64,000 nucleotides of DNA from Alicyclobacillus shizuokensis NBRC 103103 (GTDB lineage Bacteria; Bacillota; Bacilli; Alicyclobacillales; Alicyclobacillaceae). The translations under genes and the position numbers were made by a program. The stretch lies in the NCBI RefSeq assembly GCF_001552255.1, contig NZ_BCQV01000007.1:124001-188000 (forward strand). Direction: 5' to 3'. A model generated the notes under the pieces. It did no database searches and had not been told where the DNA came from. It saw only the letters and a program-made list of their open reading frames with translations. Shown here in pieces: positions 12,083 to 53,686 of the stretch (within the stretch, counting starts at the first letter, position 1; each line of letters begins with the position of its first letter).

Positions 12083-12931
12083 TCAATGCAACACCCGAGT
12101 GGATTCCTGGATCACATCCTCGGGGAGATACACGGGGCGGGAAAGTGCCGTTCGGGCATTGAAGTTCGTATAGTGAGAGACGACTTCCCCACTAGAGAGA
12201 ATCGTATTGAGATACGAGGCAGCGATGAGCGCAGCCATTTCATTGGTCTGCATGCGCTGTGGCGCGTCCACCACCGTTTGGCCACAGGACTGCGTCGGAA
12301 GCCGGGAATCCTTATCCTCAAGGATATCCGGATACACCTCACCGACAGGCCCTAGAACGGTCTTCCCATGGATTTTGACACCACAGACGACATGTCCACC
12401 ATACCCGCTTTCTGCAATCTCTTCCTCGCTGCCTTCGGTCAACACAGCCTCGACACCGGTATCGATGTAGACCACCGTACCTTTGGATCCTTCAAACCAA
12501 GCATGCATCACTTGGCGAGAGGCATGATTGTCCACACAGCCAATGAGAATCCGAATGAGACGCCGGTATGCTGGAAAGACACCAAAACACGATTCAACGT
12601 CCTCAGGCGTCTCCACATACGACTCCTTATAGAACACCGGGATGTCGTAGACGGTACCATAACGCTCCGCGAGGACCTTAGACTTGGGGAGTCCAAGGTC
12701 CTCCGCGATGCAAGGCTGACGGAGAAGGTTCTTGGATTCGAACCGGTCTCCGTCGACGATGCAATAGCGAAAGCTGTCCAATGTACCTGCGGCATGGAAA
12801 GCATACAACATCTTGGCCAGTCTCTGGGTCAGGTATCCGCCATTTCCACCCGCACCTACCTGCACGATGTCAAAATGAAAATGGTGGGGCGTCCGATGAC
12901 GTGGCCAGACCCGAAGCACGGGATGAAACAT
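12083..12931 (-). CDS. E1-like ThiF-family adenylyltransferase (PRTRC type)
   Basis: 282 residues from an ATG with GGGAGG 6 bases upstream. E1/ThiF enzymes adenylate the C-terminus of a ubiquitin-like protein with ATP. Visible motifs: nucleotide-binding VGAGGNGG (residues 25-32), DGDRFESKNLLRQPC, GLPKSK (the ThiF DxDxVexxNLxRQ and G-x-xK pattern), IGCVDNH, YIDTGV. The end reads PTQSCGQTVVD...MQTNEMAALIAASYL...YTNFNAR...RPVYLPED, matching the C-terminal signature of PRTRC ThiF proteins (PsCS, QxxfiN, NLxxxRxxPi). The Cys in SCG is a candidate thioester site. Downstream of the Ub-like gene in the same leftward string. Confidence 0.85.
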   Translation of the reverse strand: MFHPVLRVWPRHRTPHHFHFDIVQVGAGGNGGYLTQRLAKMLYAFHAAGTLDSFRYCIVDGDRFESKNLLRQPCIAEDLGLPKSKVLAERYGTVYDIPVFYKESYVETPEDVESCFGVFPAYRRLIRILIGCVDNHASRQVMHAWFEGSKGTVVYIDTGVEAVLTEGSEEEIAESGYGGHVVCGVKIHGKTVLGPVGEVYPDILEDKDSRLPTQSCGQTVVDAPQRMQTNEMAALIAASYLNTILSSGEVVSHYTNFNARTALSRPVYLPEDVIQESTRVLH

Positions 12932-13034
12932 ATCCTCCCTCCCGTTATGTGGAAAGTATCGCGGCAAAGCGCGGCAGAAGCAGTTGATCCTGTCGACTCA
13001 ATGCCGTGTCTAGATACCGACACACTTCATAGAT

Positions 13035-13439
13035 TCAACCTTTCTTGGCTCCCTTAACGACCGGAACGATCTGTTTCTTCTCGGCATCAACCAGCATCTC
13101 GGTGCGCTCTTTTGACAGCTCAGGATAATCCGCCTCGAGCATCTGCCGGACTTCTTCCACCGTCATCTCATCCCGCGGCACGGGGATCTGATAGCCGGCA
13201 TAGTACACCATATAGTCTGTGCCAACCTTCTCAGGCGTCTTGGTGACGGTCTTCTTGACTGTGGTATTCTTCGACGACCGTTTCTGCGGCTTCGATGTTT
13301 CTGGCTCCTCAATCTCACCAAAGAGGTTGGTTACCGGTTCGTCGTCCTCTGGTTGCGGAGCGGCCGCTTCTGGTTGGTATCGATTCAATTCCTCGTTCGT
13401 GGTCACCTGATCCTCACGTTCCAGTTCCAAATCTGCCAT
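13035..13439 (-). CDS. Ubiquitin-like protein of the PRTRC-C (Prok_Ub) type
   Basis: 134 residues, good ribosome binding site. Residues 1-70 are a disordered Glu/Pro then Lys/Thr-rich leader. Residues 75-134 look like a beta-grasp: YMVYYAGYQIPVPRDEMTVEEV...YPEL (105-108)...IVPVVKGAKKG. PRTRC system protein C reads VF.FNG.eL.DP.P..TPEqV...YPEL...G.KG, so the hallmark YPEL and the terminal Gly coincide. The exposed C-terminal Gly would be the residue activated by the neighbouring E1. The long N-terminal leader is not usual for PRTRC-C. Substrates unknown. Confidence 0.75.
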   Translation of the reverse strand: MADLELEREDQVTTNEELNRYQPEAAAPQPEDDEPVTNLFGEIEEPETSKPQKRSSKNTTVKKTVTKTPEKVGTDYMVYYAGYQIPVPRDEMTVEEVRQMLEADYPELSKERTEMLVDAEKKQIVPVVKGAKKG

Positions 13440-13454
13440 GGGTCCTCTCTCCTC

Positions 13455-13628
13455 TCAGTCCAAGGAATCATAGAATTTTCGAATCATCGAGCCGATGATT
13501 TTCCATCCGATGTACACCACGAGAGCAAAAATCACGATGGGTGCAAGGAACATCAACACATGAAAGGCAATGTAGAGCACCAGCAAAATCAGGGCAATGA
13601 GACACAGAAATCGAAGCACAGGATTCAC
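13455..13628 (-). CDS. Small two-span membrane protein
   Basis: 57 residues from a GTG, between the E2-like and Ub-like genes. Two hydrophobic runs (FLCLIALILLVLYIAF and LMFLAPIVIFALVVYIGW) precede a basic tail. No strong ribosome binding site, so it may be translated by coupling to the E2-like gene 13 bases upstream. Its placement inside the cassette raises the possibility that it is a membrane target or anchor of the system. Confidence 0.6.
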   Translation of the reverse strand: MNPVLRFLCLIALILLVLYIAFHVLMFLAPIVIFALVVYIGWKIIGSMIRKFYDSLD

Positions 13629-13641
13629 CTCATATTCTTGA

Positions 13642-14322
13642 TCACCGCCGAATGGTTTTCTCGGCCCATTCGGAGAAGGTGAGGTTCAGCGGTGTCAAAA
13701 TGTCATTGTCAAACTCACCTCCCTGAAAGGTATCAAAAACTTGGCGCAGGGGCCAACCGGTCTGATTCGACCGTCCTTGAATGTAGAGGTGGTCATTATT
13801 CGGGGTTTGTACCCACCGATATGGAAACGTCTGTAGCTGAGTCAGAGACTTGACTTTCTCGTTGTCAAAGTAACAAAGCATCCCTCCGTGGTGGACGTTT
13901 GAATAGGGAAACTGATAGACTGGTGAATCGTCTTTCAGGAACTGGTCGGTATAACAGCACACAGCCGCATGGACCAGGCGCTCCCCTTTCACCCGGAAAG
14001 CAAAAACCATTTTGGGATAGGGCACTTGGTGAAAGGTATCCGTGTGGTACACGACGTCAAACTGTCCGCCTTCCCAGGTCAAAAAGACCCACTCCGACTC
14101 ATCCCCCATCTTGGCGTATTTGACCGTCCCGGGCGGCAGGGTCGGTGACGCAGCAACGAGCTCATATTGCTGGGCGGATGATTCCGAAGGCTCAATGGAC
14201 GAGAGTTCAATATAGTGCAACAAGCGATCGGTGGTGATATGAAACGAGCGCTTGACCCCGTCGTCATCAAACTCAATCAGGGGCAAGTGCTCATCATCCA
14301 ACGTGATTACAACGGCAGCCAT
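13642..14322 (-). CDS. E2-like protein of the PRTRC-B (prokaryotic E2 family D) type
   Basis: 226 residues. E2 proteins accept the activated ubiquitin-like protein and pass it on. The diagnostic part is residues about 78-150: WVFLTWEGGQFDVVYH, YPKMVFAFRVKGERLVHAAV, then PVYQFPYSNVHHGGMLC. PRTRC-B proteins show LvWW.P..R..., hP.LvF.....L.v.A, and P..NV...G.vC in that order. The Cys at 150 and His 144-145 are candidate catalytic residues. The gene overlaps the upstream one by 16 bases. The N-terminal 60 residues are not recognisable. Confidence 0.75.
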   Translation of the reverse strand: MAAVVITLDDEHLPLIEFDDDGVKRSFHITTDRLLHYIELSSIEPSESSAQQYELVAASPTLPPGTVKYAKMGDESEWVFLTWEGGQFDVVYHTDTFHQVPYPKMVFAFRVKGERLVHAAVCCYTDQFLKDDSPVYQFPYSNVHHGGMLCYFDNEKVKSLTQLQTFPYRWVQTPNNDHLYIQGRSNQTGWPLRQVFDTFQGGEFDNDILTPLNLTFSEWAEKTIRR

Positions 14323-14867
14323 AACTGTTCGTACACCTCTTCCGGAACCGGAGATACACGGCTTTTACGTTTCTGAAAGAACTCATCCCATTCCCTCCAC
14401 GACGAGATGAATTCCTCAAGGGCTGAACTCATGATATTCCAGCCTTCCGCACTCACACAAAGAATTGGGGATTCTTCATCCAGCCAACCAGCATACAGCC
14501 AATAGCCGTCATACGTTTCTCCAAAACAGGCCGCAATGCTGCGTCGAAGGTCCTGGTACCGCTCGACTTCCCAATCGAACAGCCAGAAGTTCTCCATGTC
14601 ATGAAAGACGAGACGAAAGAGCAAATTCTCTCCGGGAATGCTGTCATAATCCGTGGCTTGTGGATCCTCCACGGAAACTCGGTCACCCGTAATCACCTTC
14701 AACATATCCAGAAACATGTTGGTGGTATCGCAATAGGGGTCATACCCTTCATCAAAGACGAGCAACTTTTCCTCGAGCGGATACCCGTTCATTTGCATGA
14801 GCTTCATCATGCGAAGCCGGTCAAGACACGCCAGATAATGGACGACGGTTTCATAGTCCGGGAGCAT
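14307..14867 (-). CDS. Hypothetical protein of the PRTRC-like cassette
   Basis: 186 residues. ATG 14867 follows GGGGAG by 9 bases; the longer frame to 14957 would overlap the previous gene by 76 bases. Acidic, Trp- and Tyr-rich (MENFWLFDWEVERYQDL, YDGYWLYAGWLDEE). Position immediately before the E2-like gene is where PRTRC proteins F or A sit in known cassettes, but I see no JAB metalloprotease motif (E, HxH, S, D) and cannot align it to protein F. Confidence 0.7.
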   Translation of the reverse strand: MLPDYETVVHYLACLDRLRMMKLMQMNGYPLEEKLLVFDEGYDPYCDTTNMFLDMLKVITGDRVSVEDPQATDYDSIPGENLLFRLVFHDMENFWLFDWEVERYQDLRRSIAACFGETYDGYWLYAGWLDEESPILCVSAEGWNIMSSALEEFISSWREWDEFFQKRKSRVSPVPEEVYEQLWLPL

Positions 14868-14881
14868 CGAACCACTCTCCC

Positions 14882-15217
14882 CTAAAAGAATGTGACAGAC
14901 CGCTTGGCGGCTGGCAACATGGAAAAGCCATAGATCAAATCCTTCATACGAATCCACTCATAGACGGGATGACCTTGGGCATCCTCCAGATTGTCGGCCT
15001 CAGCTGTCGGACAATACGCCATCGAATCCATGGCAAAGTCAATGCTCTGCAGGTCGATCTGTTTCAACTCCTCAAGGGTGACACGATCCCGATTGTGAAT
15101 CAGGTCAAAAAGCGGGAACTGAACCTCGGTCTGGCGAACCTCCGACTCTGGCAATGACGCCGTTGTAAGGAGAAGCTGCTTGAACTTATCGGTGTAGATC
15201 CTTGGCACGGCGCTCAT
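14882..15217 (-). CDS. Hypothetical protein, first gene of the PRTRC-like cassette
   Basis: 111 residues, preceded by a very G-rich GGAGGAGG site. No recognisable domain; mixed composition with a single Cys pair distant. It is the first gene behind the cassette promoter, so it is probably part of the system or its regulator. Confidence 0.7.
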   Translation of the reverse strand: MSAVPRIYTDKFKQLLLTTASLPESEVRQTEVQFPLFDLIHNRDRVTLEELKQIDLQSIDFAMDSMAYCPTAEADNLEDAQGHPVYEWIRMKDLIYGFSMLPAAKRSVTFF

Positions 15218-15373: not shown

Positions 15374-17236
15374 TCAGCCAGCCGCTTGCCGTCGCTCTCG
15401 GTTTTTGAGCATCCACTCGACTGCAAGTTTCGTGACATCCACCTTTCTCGCAGCCTTGCCACTCTCAAGAATCTGATCGGCCAGCTCCGCCTTGCGCTGG
15501 ATAATCTCTAGGATCTGCTCATCAAACGAATTGCTCATCACGTAGTAATAGATCGTAATGTTCTTGGCACGGTTTCCGGTACGGTCAATTCGACCAATTC
15601 GTTGTTCAAGGAGCGTGTGATCCCAAGGCAAATCGATCATGACCATATAGTTCGCGACCTGCAGATTCAAGCCAGTAGAGGCCGCATCGGTGGCCACGAA
15701 CGCCTTGACGCTTGGATCCTCGACAAAGCGACGAACCGCTTCCTCCTTCTCAGAGGTCGGTAGCTGACCGTGATACAAGACACTGTTGGGAAGCTCGCGA
15801 TGAATGATTTCGGCCATGCGAGCAAACCGCGTAAAGATCACGACCTTGGATTCAGGTTCATCATAGGTCATGCTCTTATAGAATTCCTTGAGCTGCTCAA
15901 TCTTTGGAGACTTAAAGTCCTTATCTGTAATGGCCAGTTCTTTGACGATCTGGTCGGCCATCGTGGAGCCCGACATGTGAAATAGCTCAAGGGTATCACA
16001 CGCACCCACAAGGAAGTTGTAATACCCCTGGACGCGCGCGTCGATGGCATCCAGCGCTTCCTCGGTCGAGACCAGCTGACCATGCAGGAACTGAAACGAC
16101 TTTCCGGACGAGCGGAGTTTGCTGGACTCCTCCCTCGCCTCTGCGATTTTCTCCAGGATCGCATCATGAACTTGTGCCTGTTTCGGCGTCATGTCAAGGA
16201 ACAGGTGGCTATGCTGCACCTCCGGAAGCTGTTGCTGAATCTCCGGCATGTCCTTCGTCCGCCGGATGAAATGCGGCGCAATCCGGTAATGCAACTCACC
16301 CATGTTCTGATACCCATTGATCCCGTACCGTGGATGATACTTGCAGTAACGCTCACGGAAGCGCTCCCACGGCCCCAGAATGTTCTCATCCAGAAAGTAG
16401 AACAGACTCCAAATCTCCTCGGCCTTGCCCACAACCGGGGTTGCCGTAGCGAGAAAGCGATATGGGATATGACGAAGCTGATGCACCGCCGCCGCATTTT
16501 GGGACGGCTTGAGCCGCAACATCTTGTCGGTCACACCGGTCTTGATCTTTTGGGCCTCATCGAGAGCCACAATGTCAAGCGGTAGTTTCTTGATCCGCTC
16601 CAGATAGTCCTTGGTCCGAAAGGTTTCATAGTTGACGATCAAGAAACGGACATCGCTGTTCTCGAATTTCTCAATGGCGCCAATGCGCTGCGCCGGCGTG
16701 CCGGCCACGACGATGGCGTCCTCTCCGGTAAACTTGTCAATCTCTCGCGCCCACTGACGCTTGAGGGAATTCAGGGTCACAATCAATGCCCGACGGGCCT
16801 TCCCACGCTCAAAAAGGCGCATACAGGCACCAATGAGCTGCGGGGTTTTACCTAGGCCACAGCCGTCAAATGTGGCAGCACAACCTCGGTCGACCAGGAA
16901 GTTGGCACCGACTTTTTGATATGGATACAGTGGGACCTTGAACGACGGAAAATCCGTGTCCTGCTCCCACTGGAGATGTCTCTGAACCAATTCATCTTCA
17001 ATCGGGAGGCCCTCCGCCTCAACAATTTCGCGAAGCGGCGTCATCCAAATGATCTGATTTGGGAACAGCACAAGTAGACGTGAGACCTGTTCGCGGCCAC
17101 ACATCCATTCCCCCGTTTTCAAGTTGAAACTCCGGCCTGGAATGGTGCGGATCTTCTCGAGGGTAAAATCAAACGTCTCTTGGGAATCAAGAATCTTCAT
17201 GTAGAGGTTCCCAAATTGCATTCGTACCTGGATCAT
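15374..17236 (-). CDS. SNF2-family DNA helicase/translocase
   Basis: 620 residues, AGGGAGG site upstream. Q-motif region LYPYQKVGANFL, Walker A FDGCGLGKT (residues about 123-131), LIVTLNSLKRQWAREI, Walker B DEAQ, then LATATPVVGK. The second RecA domain carries VVIFTRFARMAEII, FVATDAASTGLNLQ and RIGRIDRTGN (motif VI). The N-terminal 100 residues (RSFNLKTGEWMC, repeated) resemble the HARP-like region of SMARCAL1-type annealing helicases. It probably remodels replication forks or strips proteins from DNA. It has its own promoter and terminator. Confidence 0.9.
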   Translation of the reverse strand: MIQVRMQFGNLYMKILDSQETFDFTLEKIRTIPGRSFNLKTGEWMCGREQVSRLLVLFPNQIIWMTPLREIVEAEGLPIEDELVQRHLQWEQDTDFPSFKVPLYPYQKVGANFLVDRGCAATFDGCGLGKTPQLIGACMRLFERGKARRALIVTLNSLKRQWAREIDKFTGEDAIVVAGTPAQRIGAIEKFENSDVRFLIVNYETFRTKDYLERIKKLPLDIVALDEAQKIKTGVTDKMLRLKPSQNAAAVHQLRHIPYRFLATATPVVGKAEEIWSLFYFLDENILGPWERFRERYCKYHPRYGINGYQNMGELHYRIAPHFIRRTKDMPEIQQQLPEVQHSHLFLDMTPKQAQVHDAILEKIAEAREESSKLRSSGKSFQFLHGQLVSTEEALDAIDARVQGYYNFLVGACDTLELFHMSGSTMADQIVKELAITDKDFKSPKIEQLKEFYKSMTYDEPESKVVIFTRFARMAEIIHRELPNSVLYHGQLPTSEKEEAVRRFVEDPSVKAFVATDAASTGLNLQVANYMVMIDLPWDHTLLEQRIGRIDRTGNRAKNITIYYYVMSNSFDEQILEIIQRKAELADQILESGKAARKVDVTKLAVEWMLKNRERRQAAG

Positions 17237-41410: not shown

Positions 41411-42517
41411 ATGCAGCCTCGCAATGATCAAATGGCACACATTGTAGACGCCTCAAACAACAATGGAACGATTGATTGGAAAACGGCTGTCCAGCAGAAC
41501 ATCGCAGGTGCGATCTTCAAAGTGACGGAAGGCGTAACCTATCATGACCCGACCTTCCAGAGAAATCTGCAAGGGGCCTTGGATGTCGGCTTGCCGGTTG
41601 GTGGCTATTGCTTTGCACGACCCAGGACCAGCTCCGCCAACGATGAAGCGGATGAGTTCGCGCGGACGTTGGAAGCCGCCGGCGGCCACGAAAAGATCAA
41701 ACCCGTCCTCGACCTTGAGGACAATGGCGGGCTGTCCCGGGAAGGCGTTGTGGAGTTTGTTCATACCTTCATGGAACGGCTGAAGGGCCACTTTGGAGAC
41801 TATGGCATGCTCTACACCTATACCGCCTTCGCTCAGGCCTATTTGGACGATTCTATGTCCAAGTATGACCTTTGGATTGCGGACTATCGAAACATCTTGG
41901 CGCCCCCGGATGTCGCTGGACATAACCGGTGGAAGATGTGGCAATTCACCAGTAAAGCCTCGATTCCCGGTTTCAGCGGCGCCGTAGACCTGAGTGTGTT
42001 CGATGGCACGGTAGAAGATTTCAGAGCGTGGTGTGGTCTAGTCGGCAAGGTTCAGACGCCGGCCCGAGCTGTCGTGACAGCGCCCTCGAGCACTCGGCCA
42101 ACTCTCCGCATGGGGGACAAGGGGGCTGACGTGATCCAGCTTCAGCTGCTCCTGTATCGGATTGGACAGCATCCGGGTGCCGTGGATGGTATCTTTGGAG
42201 TGCAGACACAATCGGCCTTGAAAGCCTTCCAGGCAGCCTGCGGCATTGCCGTCGATGGGATTTGCGGCCCACAGTCTTGGTCCCATCTTCTGTCGGCACA
42301 TCCGGCGTCTCGTCCGCTCTTGGCACTTGGGAGTCGAGGGGATCAGGTCACAGATGCCCAGTATCTGTTGGCGTACCATCACCAAAGCGTAGGCACGGTC
42401 GATGGATTGTTCGGGCCCAAGACCGATAGCGCGACTCGGAGTTTCCAGAAGGCCAACGGCCTCCAGGTGGACGGGAAGATCGGACCGCAAACCTGGAACG
42501 CGCTGTTGAAATTGTGA
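41411..42517 (+). CDS. GH25 endolysin with two peptidoglycan-binding domains
   Basis: 368 residues. Residues about 8-205 form a GH25 lysozyme (IVDASNNNGTIDWKTAV, FKVTEGVTYHDPTF, GGYCFARP, PVLDLED with the catalytic Asp/Glu pair, LYTYTAF, WQFTSKASIPG, VDLSVFDG). Two PG_binding_1 repeats follow (LRMGDKGADVIQLQLLLYRIG...VDGIFGVQTQSALKAFQ and LALGSRGDQVTDAQYLLAYH...VDGLFGPKTDSATRSFQ). It cleaves peptidoglycan for host lysis. No signal peptide, so a holin would be needed; none is certain nearby. Confidence 0.95.
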   Translation: MQPRNDQMAHIVDASNNNGTIDWKTAVQQNIAGAIFKVTEGVTYHDPTFQRNLQGALDVGLPVGGYCFARPRTSSANDEADEFARTLEAAGGHEKIKPVLDLEDNGGLSREGVVEFVHTFMERLKGHFGDYGMLYTYTAFAQAYLDDSMSKYDLWIADYRNILAPPDVAGHNRWKMWQFTSKASIPGFSGAVDLSVFDGTVEDFRAWCGLVGKVQTPARAVVTAPSSTRPTLRMGDKGADVIQLQLLLYRIGQHPGAVDGIFGVQTQSALKAFQAACGIAVDGICGPQSWSHLLSAHPASRPLLALGSRGDQVTDAQYLLAYHHQSVGTVDGLFGPKTDSATRSFQKANGLQVDGKIGPQTWNALLKL

Positions 42518-47952: not shown

Positions 47953-49716
47953 ATGTCAGCAGTTATGGACAACAGGTCGCTCGCTGATTTGGAGATTGAA
48001 GTTCGTTCTGACCCAGTCAAATGGGCCTATTGGAAACTGAAAGATCCCAAGGGGAATCCGTGGAGGGCCCGATGGTATCAGAAGAAAATTATTGATGGCA
48101 TCATGAAAGGCGACCGGCGGATCGCAGTCCGCATGGGCAGGCGTGTAGGGAAGACGGAGACCCTGGTTGTTTTCTGTTTGTGGTACGCTTTTCATCACAG
48201 GAATGCACGTCTTCTCATAGCTGCGCCGTATGAAAACCAGGTTCGCCTGATTTTCATGCGTCTGAACGAGATGATCGACGACTGTGATGAGCTTCGGGAA
48301 TCCATCCGGACTCGAACCAAGAACCCGTTCATTATTCAATTCAACAACGGAAGCAGCATCATGGGCTTTACAGTAGGGGCAACTTCCGGTCAATCGGGTG
48401 CGTCTGTCCGCGGTCAACGTGCAGATTGGATCTTCCTTGACGAGATTGACTACATGGACCGCGACGGCATTGATGCGGTTACGGCCGTTGCACTGGAAGA
48501 TCCGGCGCGCATCGGGATCTGGTGCAGCTCGACACCTACCGGTAAGCGAAGTTTCTTCTATGAGATTTGTACGAACCCGGATACTGGGTACAAGGCATAT
48601 CACTTTCCATCTATGGTGAACCCTGATTGGGATGAACGGATGGAGGCCCAAATGCGGGCCACGATGACGGAACAAAGCTACATCCACGAGGTATTGGCCG
48701 AGTTCGGAGAAGAGACGGTCGGAGTTTTCGCCAAATCGGCGGTAGAACGAGCAAAGTCGCAATTCCTGTATAGCTATCGGGAACTGAATGCATACGAGCG
48801 GGAACAGTACGAGAGACAGGGCTTCAAGATGGATGAAATTATCTACTATGGCCCGTATACTGTAAGCAAACCCGCTCCCCCTGCGATTCGCATTATCGGG
48901 GTGGACTGGGATAAATACGCCAATGATACGCAGATCATTGTGACGGAGTTTGATGAGTTCCTGAAGAAGTTTCGGGTTGCCTTTCGGGCGGAGATTCCAA
49001 GAGGGGAATTCACGCTCGACAATGCGGTCAAAAAAATTATCGAACTCAACGCAATTTATGATCCTCGTCTGATCTACATAGACCGAGGGTTTGGTGAGTA
49101 TCAGATTGAGACACTTCGCTTGTATGGCCGGGAGCATCCTGAGACAGGCCTCGATCGAAAGATCCGGCCAGTGCATTTTGGACAAAAGATTGAAGTTCGG
49201 GATCCTGCAACACGAGAAGTGGACATGAAGGATGTAAAGCCATTCATGGTAAACCAGACGGCGCTCTTGCTTGAACGTGACAAGATTGTGCTGTCTCCCT
49301 TTGACGATATGGTCTGGAAGCAGATGATGGACTATCAGGTCGTCAAGATCACGCAGAACGGCCGGCCGGTGTACACCTCCGAAAACGAACATGCGCTCGA
49401 TGCCTTTATGCTCACCATTCTCGGCTTTACGCTTGAGTTTCCGGACATCACACAGATTCTTGAAGAAGTGAAGGTCGCCCGGACCAACAAGTTCATTCAC
49501 GGCAAATCCATCGTGGAGAAAGTCACTGAGAAGGTCTTTGGTGGCACGCGCGATGTGTACAAGCCTAGGGATACACGAGAGTTTGAGCCCAAGGACGATC
49601 CGAACTGGCGCCTGCGGAAAGTGCCGCTTGGATATGCCAAGCCGCGCGGCGGGCAATGGGGAATGAGAGGGACTTCGAGATATTCACGATCGCCGTTTGC
49701 CAGAAGGTCAATCTAA
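47953..49716 (+). CDS. terL: Terminase large subunit
   Basis: 587 residues, AAGGAGAAGGAG site. ATPase: Walker A MGRRVGKTET (residues about 60-69), LLIAAPYENQ, Walker B WIFLDEIDYM, coupling motif SSTPTG. Nuclease (RNase H-like): GVDWDKYAND, YIDRGFGE, and EHALDAFML supply the Asp/Glu residues. It packages phage DNA into the prohead and cuts concatemers. The end is basic. Confidence 0.95.
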   Translation: MSAVMDNRSLADLEIEVRSDPVKWAYWKLKDPKGNPWRARWYQKKIIDGIMKGDRRIAVRMGRRVGKTETLVVFCLWYAFHHRNARLLIAAPYENQVRLIFMRLNEMIDDCDELRESIRTRTKNPFIIQFNNGSSIMGFTVGATSGQSGASVRGQRADWIFLDEIDYMDRDGIDAVTAVALEDPARIGIWCSSTPTGKRSFFYEICTNPDTGYKAYHFPSMVNPDWDERMEAQMRATMTEQSYIHEVLAEFGEETVGVFAKSAVERAKSQFLYSYRELNAYEREQYERQGFKMDEIIYYGPYTVSKPAPPAIRIIGVDWDKYANDTQIIVTEFDEFLKKFRVAFRAEIPRGEFTLDNAVKKIIELNAIYDPRLIYIDRGFGEYQIETLRLYGREHPETGLDRKIRPVHFGQKIEVRDPATREVDMKDVKPFMVNQTALLLERDKIVLSPFDDMVWKQMMDYQVVKITQNGRPVYTSENEHALDAFMLTILGFTLEFPDITQILEEVKVARTNKFIHGKSIVEKVTEKVFGGTRDVYKPRDTREFEPKDDPNWRLRKVPLGYAKPRGGQWGMRGTSRYSRSPFARRSI

Positions 49717-51484: not shown

Positions 51485-53686
51485 GTGGCTCGGTTTCTGA
51501 ATAACGTCATCAAGCGATTTGCCACAGCCAATGAAGCGCCTTCTCCTCCCAGTCGCAGTAGCGGCTCCGCCGGTGTGGGTTTTGGTCCATCCTTCAAGCG
51601 AGATCCGAAGGCAACGCAAGTGAAACGGGTCGGCTATCAGCTTCCGTCTGCGAATGCCACGGGTGGAGGTGGCGGGCGCGCGAATTTTGAGTCGCCTGAC
51701 ATTGACTTCGCCCAAATCGATGCGGCGATTGAGCGTGACAGCTATGTGATGCAGACGGTCCTCAAATACTCGGAGTTGGTCTTTAAGAGTGGCTGGCAGT
51801 TCAAGAGCAAGAACCAGCAGGCCCTCGATTATGTGAAGCTCCGTCTCGACATGATTGCCGTCGGGACCGATACGCCGACGGAGATGTTGTTCCAAGGGAT
51901 TGCGGATGACATTGTCCGGTATGCCAATGCCTTTATCGTAAAGGCGCGCGGAAAGGGAAACCAAGGTCTGCCGCCTGGTCTGTCTGCGATTCCGATGCCC
52001 CCGGCCAAGGGCCCTGTGATTGGTTACTTTCGGCTTCCGCCCAGCACGATGCAGGTCGGACGGGATCTGAACGGGAACATCACGGGGTATCAGCAGACTG
52101 TACAGGGCCAGGACCCGATTACCTTTCGACCTGAAGATGTGATTCACATCAAGGTGAATGTCCCGGCCGGCAAGGCGTTTGGTGAACCGTGGTTGGCACC
52201 GGTCATCGAAGATGTGCGTCTGCTACGGAAAGTGGAAGAGAATGCAGCGCTGCTGCTCTATCGACACATCTTTCCCCTTCTCGCGTACACCGTGGGCCTA
52301 GACAAGCCAGGATACGAAGCCACGGACGAGGAACTTAACGAGATTCGGTCCACGATTGAGAACATGCCAACCGATGGGGCTATCGTGCTTCCGGAACGGC
52401 ACAAGATCGATGCGGTCAATCTGACTGCGATCGATGGAAAGCCATATCTGGACTACTTCGAGGCTCGCGTGTTCTCAGGACTTGGCATGAGCCAGGTAGA
52501 CATGGGTCGAGGCGATACAGCAAACCGGAACACCGCTGACGCGATGACGGGGATCAAGGCGGACCGGATCAATGGCTGGCAGCGCCAGATTGCCCTTCAA
52601 ATCAACAAGTACATCATTGAGGAACTCTTGGTTGAGGGCGGCTTTGATCCTCTGGCGGATCCGAATAACAAAGTCGAATTCGTGTTCAACGAGATTGAAG
52701 CCGAGATGCGGATCAAGCTCGATACGCACGAGATTTACAAGTACGAGCACAACGTCCAGACCTTTGAGGAAACACGGATCAACCTCAAGCTCGAACCGCA
52801 AGTGGATGAATCTCGATTGTATTTGAACATGGTCAAGATCCCGGAGATTGAGGCGGCCGCTCAAGCGAAGGCTACTGTGGCATCCACGCCAGGAACGCCG
52901 GAAACCAATAACAAGCAGCAGCCGACGAACCAACATGGTACTCGATCCGGACCCAAGCGATCGACTGAGTCCTTGCGAGAATCTGCACCCGACTTCATCT
53001 CAACCTCCACTCTGGATCGTCTCCAGAAGCGTCTTGCATCGACGTATGAACAGATGGAAGCCGATGTGGTGGATGAGGTTCGCAAGCACATGTCGGGTCG
53101 ATCCTTCCCGATCAAGGATCCAAAAACGCTGTTGTCTGCGGTGCATTTCGCCAAAGACACGATGTGGCACGACATCGAATATGCGGCCCGGCAGTGTCTG
53201 ATGGATGGCGTTGTGGCCGCCAAAGACGATCTGAATCGCGGGTCGCTCGCCAATGTGAACTACTCCAGTTCGCTTCGTTTGATTGGGGAGGACGCCAATC
53301 GATCCTTGGGCCGGCTGGAGCAGGCGATTCAAAAGACACTGTCTGCCAAGCTGGCGGATGCCAAGGACTTGAGTGAAGCGATTCTCAAGACACGCGCCGT
53401 GTTCCAATCGCTCCGCTATCGTGTCGAATTCCTCGCGCTCTACACGCTGGCGAAGGCATTCAACTACGGATATGCGCTGAGCTTCCTTCAGTACGAAGAA
53501 GACCAGCTTGTCGTAGAAAAAGGATCCGATGGGTGTGTGACCTGTCAGGAGAAATCCGGCACCTCGATTCATGTGGGCAATCATTCATCTCTCGATGAAG
53601 TTGCTATATATCATCACATTCCGCCTTGGCATCCACATTGCAATTGCCGACTGACTCCGGCGAAAGAACCGGAAGCCAAAGCGTGA
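51485..53686 (+). CDS. Portal protein fused to a MuF-like head-morphogenesis domain
   Basis: 733 residues from GTG, AAAGGAGGG upstream. Residues about 60-470 are portal-like (IGYFRLPPSTMQVGRD, DVIHIKVNVPAGKAFGEPWLAP, RVFSGLGMSQVDMGRGDT, DRINGWQRQIALQINKYIIEELL). A linker of Thr, Gln and Asn follows (about 485-515). The C-terminal 220 residues are helical and end in CVTCQEKSG...HIPPWHPHCNCRLTP, the Cys/His signature of MuF/SPP1-gp7-type head proteins. The portal forms the ring through which DNA enters; fusion with MuF is found in some phages. Confidence 0.85.
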   Translation: MARFLNNVIKRFATANEAPSPPSRSSGSAGVGFGPSFKRDPKATQVKRVGYQLPSANATGGGGGRANFESPDIDFAQIDAAIERDSYVMQTVLKYSELVFKSGWQFKSKNQQALDYVKLRLDMIAVGTDTPTEMLFQGIADDIVRYANAFIVKARGKGNQGLPPGLSAIPMPPAKGPVIGYFRLPPSTMQVGRDLNGNITGYQQTVQGQDPITFRPEDVIHIKVNVPAGKAFGEPWLAPVIEDVRLLRKVEENAALLLYRHIFPLLAYTVGLDKPGYEATDEELNEIRSTIENMPTDGAIVLPERHKIDAVNLTAIDGKPYLDYFEARVFSGLGMSQVDMGRGDTANRNTADAMTGIKADRINGWQRQIALQINKYIIEELLVEGGFDPLADPNNKVEFVFNEIEAEMRIKLDTHEIYKYEHNVQTFEETRINLKLEPQVDESRLYLNMVKIPEIEAAAQAKATVASTPGTPETNNKQQPTNQHGTRSGPKRSTESLRESAPDFISTSTLDRLQKRLASTYEQMEADVVDEVRKHMSGRSFPIKDPKTLLSAVHFAKDTMWHDIEYAARQCLMDGVVAAKDDLNRGSLANVNYSSSLRLIGEDANRSLGRLEQAIQKTLSAKLADAKDLSEAILKTRAVFQSLRYRVEFLALYTLAKAFNYGYALSFLQYEEDQLVVEKGSDGCVTCQEKSGTSIHVGNHSSLDEVAIYHHIPPWHPHCNCRLTPAKEPEAKA

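Follow-up and report, generated by a model that had tools for sequence, protein, structure and literature searches.

Combining profile searches, gene-order comparisons and structure models, our analysis of a 64,000-nucleotide stretch of Alicyclobacillus shizuokensis NBRC 103103 DNA (the window: positions 124,001-188,000 of contig C7, NZ_BCQV01000007.1, in a host assembly of 3.63 Mb and 148 contigs) brings out a minus-strand cassette with genes for an E1, an E2-like protein and a small ubiquitin-like protein (Ubl). We conclude that it is probably a conjugation cassette of the PRTRC, or Iyer type 6d, kind, from a phage-plasmid branch without a JAB protease, and we suggest the replication fork of its element as the likely place of action. 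Conjugation is the best-supported function, and it is very probable that E1, E2-like protein and Ubl make up a functional cascade. In reading order, the cassette comprises the following features.

14882-15217, minus strand: P6, the first cassette gene (111 residues; C-terminus ...VTFF)
14307-14867, minus strand: P5 (about 186 residues), of a syntenic family with an invariant Lys52 (long numbering)
13642-14322, minus strand: E2-like protein, Prok-E2_D type (226 residues); Cys150 codon at 13873-13875
13455-13628, minus strand: putative membrane protein of 57 residues
13035-13439, minus strand: Ubl (134 residues), a low-complexity leader (residues 1-69) followed by a Prok_Ub-type domain; codon of the C-terminal Gly, which comes after KK, at 13038-13040
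13320-13334, minus strand: motif VTNLF in the Ubl leader (residues 36-40), a degenerate copy of Q-x-[SDN]-[LI]-F, the motif of the family
12083-12931, minus strand: E1, ThiF type (about 282 residues), with a GxG motif and adenylation-site residues; Cys228 (long numbering) codon at 12284-12286

An earlier note on this DNA, made from its letters alone, had placed all of these genes correctly apart from two starts, which we move from 12967 to 12931 for E1 and from 14957 to 14867 for P5 on the strength of relatives and of ribosome-binding-like sites. The homologies that it proposed for the three core proteins hold at the level of broad families: the E1 matches ThiF (PF00899) with 29.1 bits, over the Pfam cut-off of 28.1, and the E2-like protein matches Prok-E2_D (PF14460) with 25.2 bits, just above the gathering cut-off of 25, whereas the match of the Ubl to Prok_Ub (PF14454; residues 80-109, E 1.8e-4, 21.7 bits) stays under its gathering cut-off of 25. 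The cut-offs of the NCBIfam PRTRC models are likewise not reached: PRTRC_ThiF gives 76.1 bits (cut-off 144.75; E 2.6e-21), PRTRC_B 14.7 (131.45) and PRTRC_C 18.4 (45.95). Strict PRTRC membership is not supported: the cassette is homologous to the PRTRC equivalogs, and under the NCBI cut-offs it is not a member.

For comparison, 29 whole records were sorted by a search with the window terminase and a search for the portal family. Group I comprises 11 records (G001, which is the window's contig, G002-G006, G011, G012, W01, W02 and W13) with a portal and a terminase close to the window's (60-77% identical; fragmented in G005); the seven records of group II (G007, G008, G010, W04, W07 and the isolated phages KLEB27-3, W05, and ME3, W06) have a portal and a more distant terminase (30-50%). 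Both genes are absent from nine plasmid records (W03, W08-W12, W14-W16), and two short records (G009 and G013; 54 and 45 kb) have no portal. Related cassettes are carried by large plasmids from several phyla.

The E1 belongs to the ThiF/E1 superfamily, with the ThiF domain, the nucleotide-binding motif and the conserved Cys all present. All 17 aligned proteins have Gly38, Gly40, Asp72, Asp74, Asn80, Gln84, Lys95, Asp146, Asn147 and Cys228 (the window is counted here, as it is in the 18 and 27 aligned rows and the 11 group I records below), and the P-x-x-[SA]-C-G block recurs in 11/11 group I records. Against the Protein Data Bank (PDB), the E1 profile finds ThiF-fold proteins, with eukaryotic E1s, MccB and ThiF among 51 sequences at E<=0.001. 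In two plasmids (L018:7160-10592 and L021:6795-10471) an insertion that carries a reverse-transcriptase gene interrupts E1; in L021 it is annotated as a group II intron.

In the E2-like protein, Cys150 is invariant in two alignments (18/18 and 27/27) and is kept in 10/10 aligned proteins of the 11 group I records; it lies inside a PxSNVxxxGxxC block that we take to resemble the HPN...C stretch of E2s. A candidate downstream His, His178, is present in the window and in 5/5 of a small alignment and is not kept throughout the larger one; a conserved His downstream of the Cys is described for such E2-like proteins by Iyer et al. (2006; PMC1779556). The structure model (predicted local distance difference test score, pLDDT, 90.7) resembles a UBC-like fold, as 46 of the 50 rows listed in the second look by VIA-align, all E2 or UEV structures, would support short of proof; the best of these reaches Z 6.1 (root-mean-square deviation 3.8 over 113 residues), and a Z of about 6 lies in the range that VIA-align calls middling. 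Among PDB sequences the E2 profile matched nothing.

The Ubl domain is predicted to be of the Prok_Ub type, and its end is where the window protein and its plasmid relatives part. In the six plasmid loci compared first (L005, L018, L022, L024, L025, L026) the reading frame runs on from this domain into a JAB, with PRTRC_A matches in the fused JAB parts of L005 and L018; the alignments reach window Gly134, where the window protein stops and the plasmid proteins go on. Across the loci there are 45 distinct Ubl proteins, 22 unfused and 23 fused to JAB (L001, L116-L123 and identical proteins are excluded from these counts and from those for P6; profile seeds make up 18 of the Ubls and 15 of the 39 P6 proteins). 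A Gly stands at the end of the domain profile in 44 of the 45, preceded by Lys in 38, Asn in 4, Ala in 1 and Arg in 1, and in 26 of the 27 non-seed proteins; since the profile ends at this Gly by construction, only proteins that themselves stop there give independent evidence of the end. Of the 22 unfused Ubls 20 do, the window's included, the exceptions being L053, with five extra residues, and the polyUbl protein of phage KLEB27-3, which is also the 45th protein, its hidden Markov model (HMM) match having stopped short. The terminal Gly is found in all 11 group I Ubls (that of L028 is identical to that of L004).

The KLEB27-3 polyUbl gene (L007:712-1419, OM634661.1 gp199) encodes four tandem 57-residue repeats, each ending KAGVKG, and a 7-residue tail past the last repeat; repeats 2 and 3 are identical as protein with synonymous changes in 31 of 57 codons. 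It lies 2-5 kb from E2-like (weakly matched, BLAST E 0.09), JAB and E1 genes. None of 13 pattern matches in viral contigs was confirmed as a relative, and among phages KLEB27-3 stands alone.

JAB proteins of this family, in which Glu107, His153, His155, Ser163 and Asp166 are invariant, were matched by a family-specific profile in 0/11 group I records and in 16 of the 18 others (7/7 in group II, 8/9 plasmids, G013 yes and G009 no), several of the positive records being seeds of that profile; a TIGR03735 (PRTRC_A) search divides the records into the same two sets. Neither TIGR03735 nor PF14464 matches contig C7, and the family-specific profile finds no JAB there or elsewhere in the host genome, which extends to contig and genome the earlier remark that no JAB is visible. 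The host has a PF14464 match on contig C19, which the family-specific profile does not hit. The absence is weaker in G003, G011 and G012, as these records are short (93, 117 and 100 kb); W01 and W02 are circular. In a tree of 45 E1 rows, with JAB labels assigned by hand from the profile searches, phage groups I and II form one clade (100/98) with group II as one clade within it; the plasmids with fused Ubl-JAB fall outside, the joining of both being weak (80/62). Group I as a single clade was not resolved in this tree, where 2 changes are needed and one change suffices in 24% of bootstrap trees. From the JAB distribution and this tree we read group I as having lost JAB, with the result that its modifier would be mature at birth and have no dedicated deconjugase.

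Two features of the family connect the cassette with the sliding clamp, DnaN. The bacterial clamp-binding motif is given as QL[S/D]LF, more generally QxxLF, with variation at the first position in DnaE3 proteins (PMC12309361). Among 43 distinct Ubl leaders of 32-171 residues (L001, L007, L041, L116-L123 and identical proteins are left out, and L139 from Vibrio, L140 from Deinococcus and L141-L142 from cyanobacteria stand outside the motif check), Q..[LI]F occurs in 24 (shuffled mean 0.6, maximum 5), the strict form Q[LMFIV][SDNATG][LI]F in 12 (shuffled 0.04, maximum 2) and [SDNAT][LI]F in 39 (shuffled 4.1, maximum 11), with QLDLF in L017/L027 and QLSLF in L020/L094. The strict motif lies within the first 80 residues of only 5 of 1394 other mechanical open reading frames. 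Leaders of this length are usual for the family, so that the 70-residue leader that the earlier note thought unusual is not. Three proteobacterial PRTRC_C proteins of 68-70 residues have neither leader nor motif, and the motif is therefore not a feature of all PRTRC systems. In clostridial-type JAB proteins of at least 400 residues without a Ubl match, the motif signal (strict 5/47 against 0.4 shuffled, Q..[LI]F 7/47 against 4.3) was weak and was not used.

The second feature is adjacency. A DnaN profile seeded with four annotated clamp genes matches 34 of 117 loci, these four seeds included (L001, L002, L009-L012 and L116-L135 are left out, and two of the 34 clamp proteins, in L045 and L100, are repeats), and DnaN adjoins the cassette in 24, with its start overlapping the last 4 nt of E1 in 14 and its end 24-97 nt before P6 in 10; since the loci are related, neither these counts nor those for the motif are independent. 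All 10 sampled clamp proteins match Pfam clamp domains, eight with at least one match over cut-off and those of L063 and L071 below it only. The 14 overlap loci are clostridial by title or labelled only Firmicutes, many being Oscillospiraceae; in Azospira, DnaN precedes PRTRC_E and C, while the DnaN of pQBR103 is 3.8 kb downstream of E1. The two DnaN arrangements and that of Azospira are separate gene orders. A DnaN gene of the element's own is present in 10/11 group I records, 0/7 of group II and 8/9 plasmids (two below cut-off). The DnaN in the overlap loci (L063, L071, L076-L078, L080, L084, L087, L090, L097, L103, L104, L107, L108) is divergent, and replication genes were also seen, without a control, near cassettes in annotated plasmids.

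The earlier note had suggested two extra proteins and the 57-residue membrane protein as partners. For P5 and P6 this gains from gene order: in Bacillota plasmids and phages, HMMs recover one of two orders, P6-P5-E2-Ubl(-JAB)-E1 or E1-P6-P5-E2-Ubl. The 57-residue protein, by contrast, has tblastn matches among 143 loci only in copies of the window element, and it looks like an insertion special to that element because other phage-type loci have no room for the gene (the E2-Ubl gap is 3-37 nt in 12 of them). P5 and P6 match no NCBIfam model at E<=1. The P5 model (pLDDT 77.3) gave nothing usable in Foldseek (best E 0.14 against the PDB, 0.061 against BFVD), and eight PDB rows from the P5 sequence profile (best E 0.043) were taken as chance. 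The last two residues of P6 are F-[F/I/L] in 36 of 39 matches and in 21 of 24 non-seeds, an end that could be another motif of the clamp type or of the single-stranded DNA-binding protein (SSB) tail type; it is often preceded by acidic residues (EEDDFI, DDDDLFI), and PRTRC_E of Azospira ends TAELF.

The ratio of nonsynonymous to synonymous substitution rates (dN/dS) is 0.05-0.25 in the 16 pair comparisons of E1, E2 and Ubl, out of 21, that yielded a ratio, with dS >1 in many; P5 evolves faster, its dN/dS reaching 0.57 when the window element is compared with its group I relative L034. The recurrence of the set in dozens of loci, the retention of catalytic residues and order, and the low dN/dS together argue that the cassette is more than a chance assembly.

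Contig C7 is a separate contig of 197,999 bp, and a viral contig with the same E1 exists in IMG/VR. No terminal overlap was found when the contig was searched for circularity; two close relatives with the same genes, W01 (203,589 bp) and W02 (214,846 bp), have been deposited as circular plasmids. Since terminase, portal and endolysin are present as well, in keeping with the phage setting first proposed, the element is most likely a phage-plasmid. Phage records searched with the window Ubl gave no match, and with the window E2 a single one (MT835919.1, 29% over 127 residues). RecA, like the cassette, is encoded on the minus strand. Other features of the window are as follows.

15374-17236, minus strand: SNF2-type helicase, directly upstream of the cassette
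41411-42517, plus strand: endolysin (GH25), a phage hallmark
42605-43963, plus strand: actin-like (ALP/ParM-like) partition protein, in the plus-strand half
47953-49716, plus strand: terminase large subunit, a phage packaging gene
51485-53686, plus strand: portal protein, a phage structural gene

Elsewhere in the window, a protein at 881-1723 matches families of the anaerobic ribonucleotide reductase small subunit (activase), here on a phage element, and a 1091-residue protein at 30520-33795 matches RdRP (PF05183, E 1.2e-12), with a 948-residue open frame on the opposite strand; we presume that the former of these two might be a YonO-like single-subunit RNA polymerase.

We suggest that the E1 would adenylate the C-terminal Gly of the Ubl and take the Ubl on Cys228, from where it would move on to the E2-like protein, at Cys150, and finally be joined to a target amino group. 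Many relatives have a JAB, fused to the Ubl or encoded beside it, that could trim the Ubl and presumably also remove it from targets. Because the window gene ends exactly at KKG, the Ubl would here be born mature, and conjugation would be one-way unless a host enzyme takes the Ubl off. The clamp-binding-type motif in the family's leaders and the repeated position of the cassette beside DnaN make the element's replication fork the likely site of action, where conjugation might tag proteins at the clamp, or hand them a clamp-binding tail, as a counterpart of the control of PCNA by ubiquitin and SUMO. Action at the clamp could well hold at the level of the family, if a little short of an even call. 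We more tentatively posit that PRTRC-like cassettes are a Ubl modification system of the replication clamp, in which the Ubl has a DnaN-binding tail and modification would be reversible on plasmids, through Ubl-JAB, and irreversible on phage-plasmids; action at the clamp in the window element itself is more doubtful again. Several points weigh against this picture, beyond the construction of the Ubl profile, the middling E2 score and the relatedness of the loci mentioned above. The Ubl domain has no sequence relative in the PDB (13 weak rows, none recognised as beta-grasp), and Foldseek with the E2 model returned nothing significant (best E 0.22) and no UBC row in the top 50. The window motif VTNLF lacks the Gln, L034 has no motif altogether, and the window element's DnaN (C7 near 98.8 kb) lies about 37 kb from E1.

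The leader might instead dock E1, E2 or JAB, in a conjugation cassette unconnected with replication. A disordered tail can offer a short motif to partners of any kind, and this one sits on the modifier itself; the missing Gln of the window copy and the three leaderless proteobacterial PRTRC_C proteins fit such a role. We nonetheless consider it unlikely, since the motif is retained in JAB-less group I (10 distinct leaders: [SDNAT][LI]F in 9/10, Q..[LI]F in 6/10), the KLEB27-3 polyUbl has no such leader although E1, E2-like and JAB genes are present, the five other frames with the strict motif include two annotated 5'-3' exonucleases, and the adjacency of DnaN is evidence of a separate kind. 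Decay is a far less probable account: a cassette that lost JAB and no longer works would explain the absent JAB, the degenerate window motif and the fast P5, yet the low dN/dS of E1, E2 and Ubl and the E1 Cys block, E2 Cys and terminal Gly kept throughout group I speak for function.

If the cassette functions, its chemistry or its purpose might still differ from conjugation at the fork. A ThiS/MoaD-like Ubl that E1 activates so that a nucleotide, a tRNA or a cofactor is thiolated, and that is never attached to protein, would suit superfamilies that hold ThiF and ThiS (ThiS match E 0.069), as well as the gene of the PAPS-reductase family beside E1 in L017 (7103-8026) and L022 (8328-9101) and 3.8 kb off in L005 (14081-14923). 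An E2-like partner with an invariant Cys and the JAB fusions of relatives are hard to reconcile with a sulfur carrier, Pfam finds ThiF as the sole domain of the E1, with no rhodanese, and the E1 sequence has no CxxC; we regard this role as quite improbable. Scarcely more credible, and if anything a shade less so, is defense or superinfection exclusion in the manner of Bil, with the resident element conjugating Ubl to components of an incoming phage. The phage-plasmid setting would allow it, and other bacterial Ubl systems, Bil and CBASS, are reported to counter phages (PMC13373217, PMC11354881). However, PADLOC matches to E1-E2 are weak (best E 1.4e-4 over about 70 residues), the cassette lies near replication and repair genes, its relatives sit on large plasmids of several phyla, and the isolated phage KLEB27-3 carries a set of its own. 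Conjugation, likely at the replication fork, stays our preferred reading.

We know of no assigned function for the PRTRC/6d cassette, which was predicted in 2006, and our searches of the open-access PMC literature brought up no title or abstract opening that describes phage PRTRC-like cassettes or a clamp link. The Ubl-JAB fusions, the clamp-type leader motif and the DnaN adjacency go beyond the earlier note. The motif, together with a DnaN gene that overlaps E1 in one group and closely precedes P6 in another, suggests in concrete terms where the cassette may act, and the clamp link suggests what a long-unexplained family may do. The series from fused Ubl-JAB through adjacent and distant JAB to no JAB illustrates how maturation and deconjugation may be rearranged or dropped, and an E1-E2-Ubl cascade, with a polyubiquitin-like gene in one isolated phage, is placed inside bacterial viruses.

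The closest known system is the type 6d operon of Iyer et al. (2006; PMC1779556), which combines a Ubl with a terminal Gly, an E2-like protein with a Cys, an E1, a JAB and a helical protein, and which we ourselves equate with the PRTRC system (NCBIfam TIGR03735-03738). The window cassette shares with it the E1, the E2-like protein with a conserved Cys, a small Ubl with a C-terminal Gly, further syntenic proteins and, in relatives, carriage on large plasmids. PRTRC sets also include ParB and an actin-like protein, and a candidate for the latter lies about 30 kb from the window cassette. In contrast, the window cassette has no JAB, resides on a phage, scores under all three NCBIfam cut-offs and has P5 and P6 outside the NCBIfam models, and its family's Ubl bears a long leader with a Q-x-x-L-F motif that the three proteobacterial PRTRC_C proteins do not have. 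With Bil and type II CBASS (Cap2/Cap3) it would share E1- and E2-type chemistry, and the Bil deconjugase is described as exposing the Gly of its Ubl, whereas the window E1 and E2 are separate genes with no JAB and the best PADLOC match has 18.8 bits over about 70 residues. Phage tails offer the pair TAPI and JAB TAPK, where a ubiquitin-like domain is thought to be trimmed by JAB at a C-terminal Gly and a TAPI-JAB fusion is mentioned; the part of Iyer et al. that treats them describes no E1 or E2, and the window cassette stands with replication genes rather than tail genes. The polyUbl operons of type 6e in the same source have tandem ubiquitin-like domains, as does the KLEB27-3 polyUbl. KLEB27-3 differs in that the four repeats are nearly identical and its E2-like protein has the Cys; the window Ubl is single. 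Eukaryotic PCNA ubiquitylation and SUMOylation tie ubiquitin-type modification to the sliding clamp. With the window family they would share the idea, with the differences that here the motif is on the modifier itself and that modification of the clamp is our conjecture.

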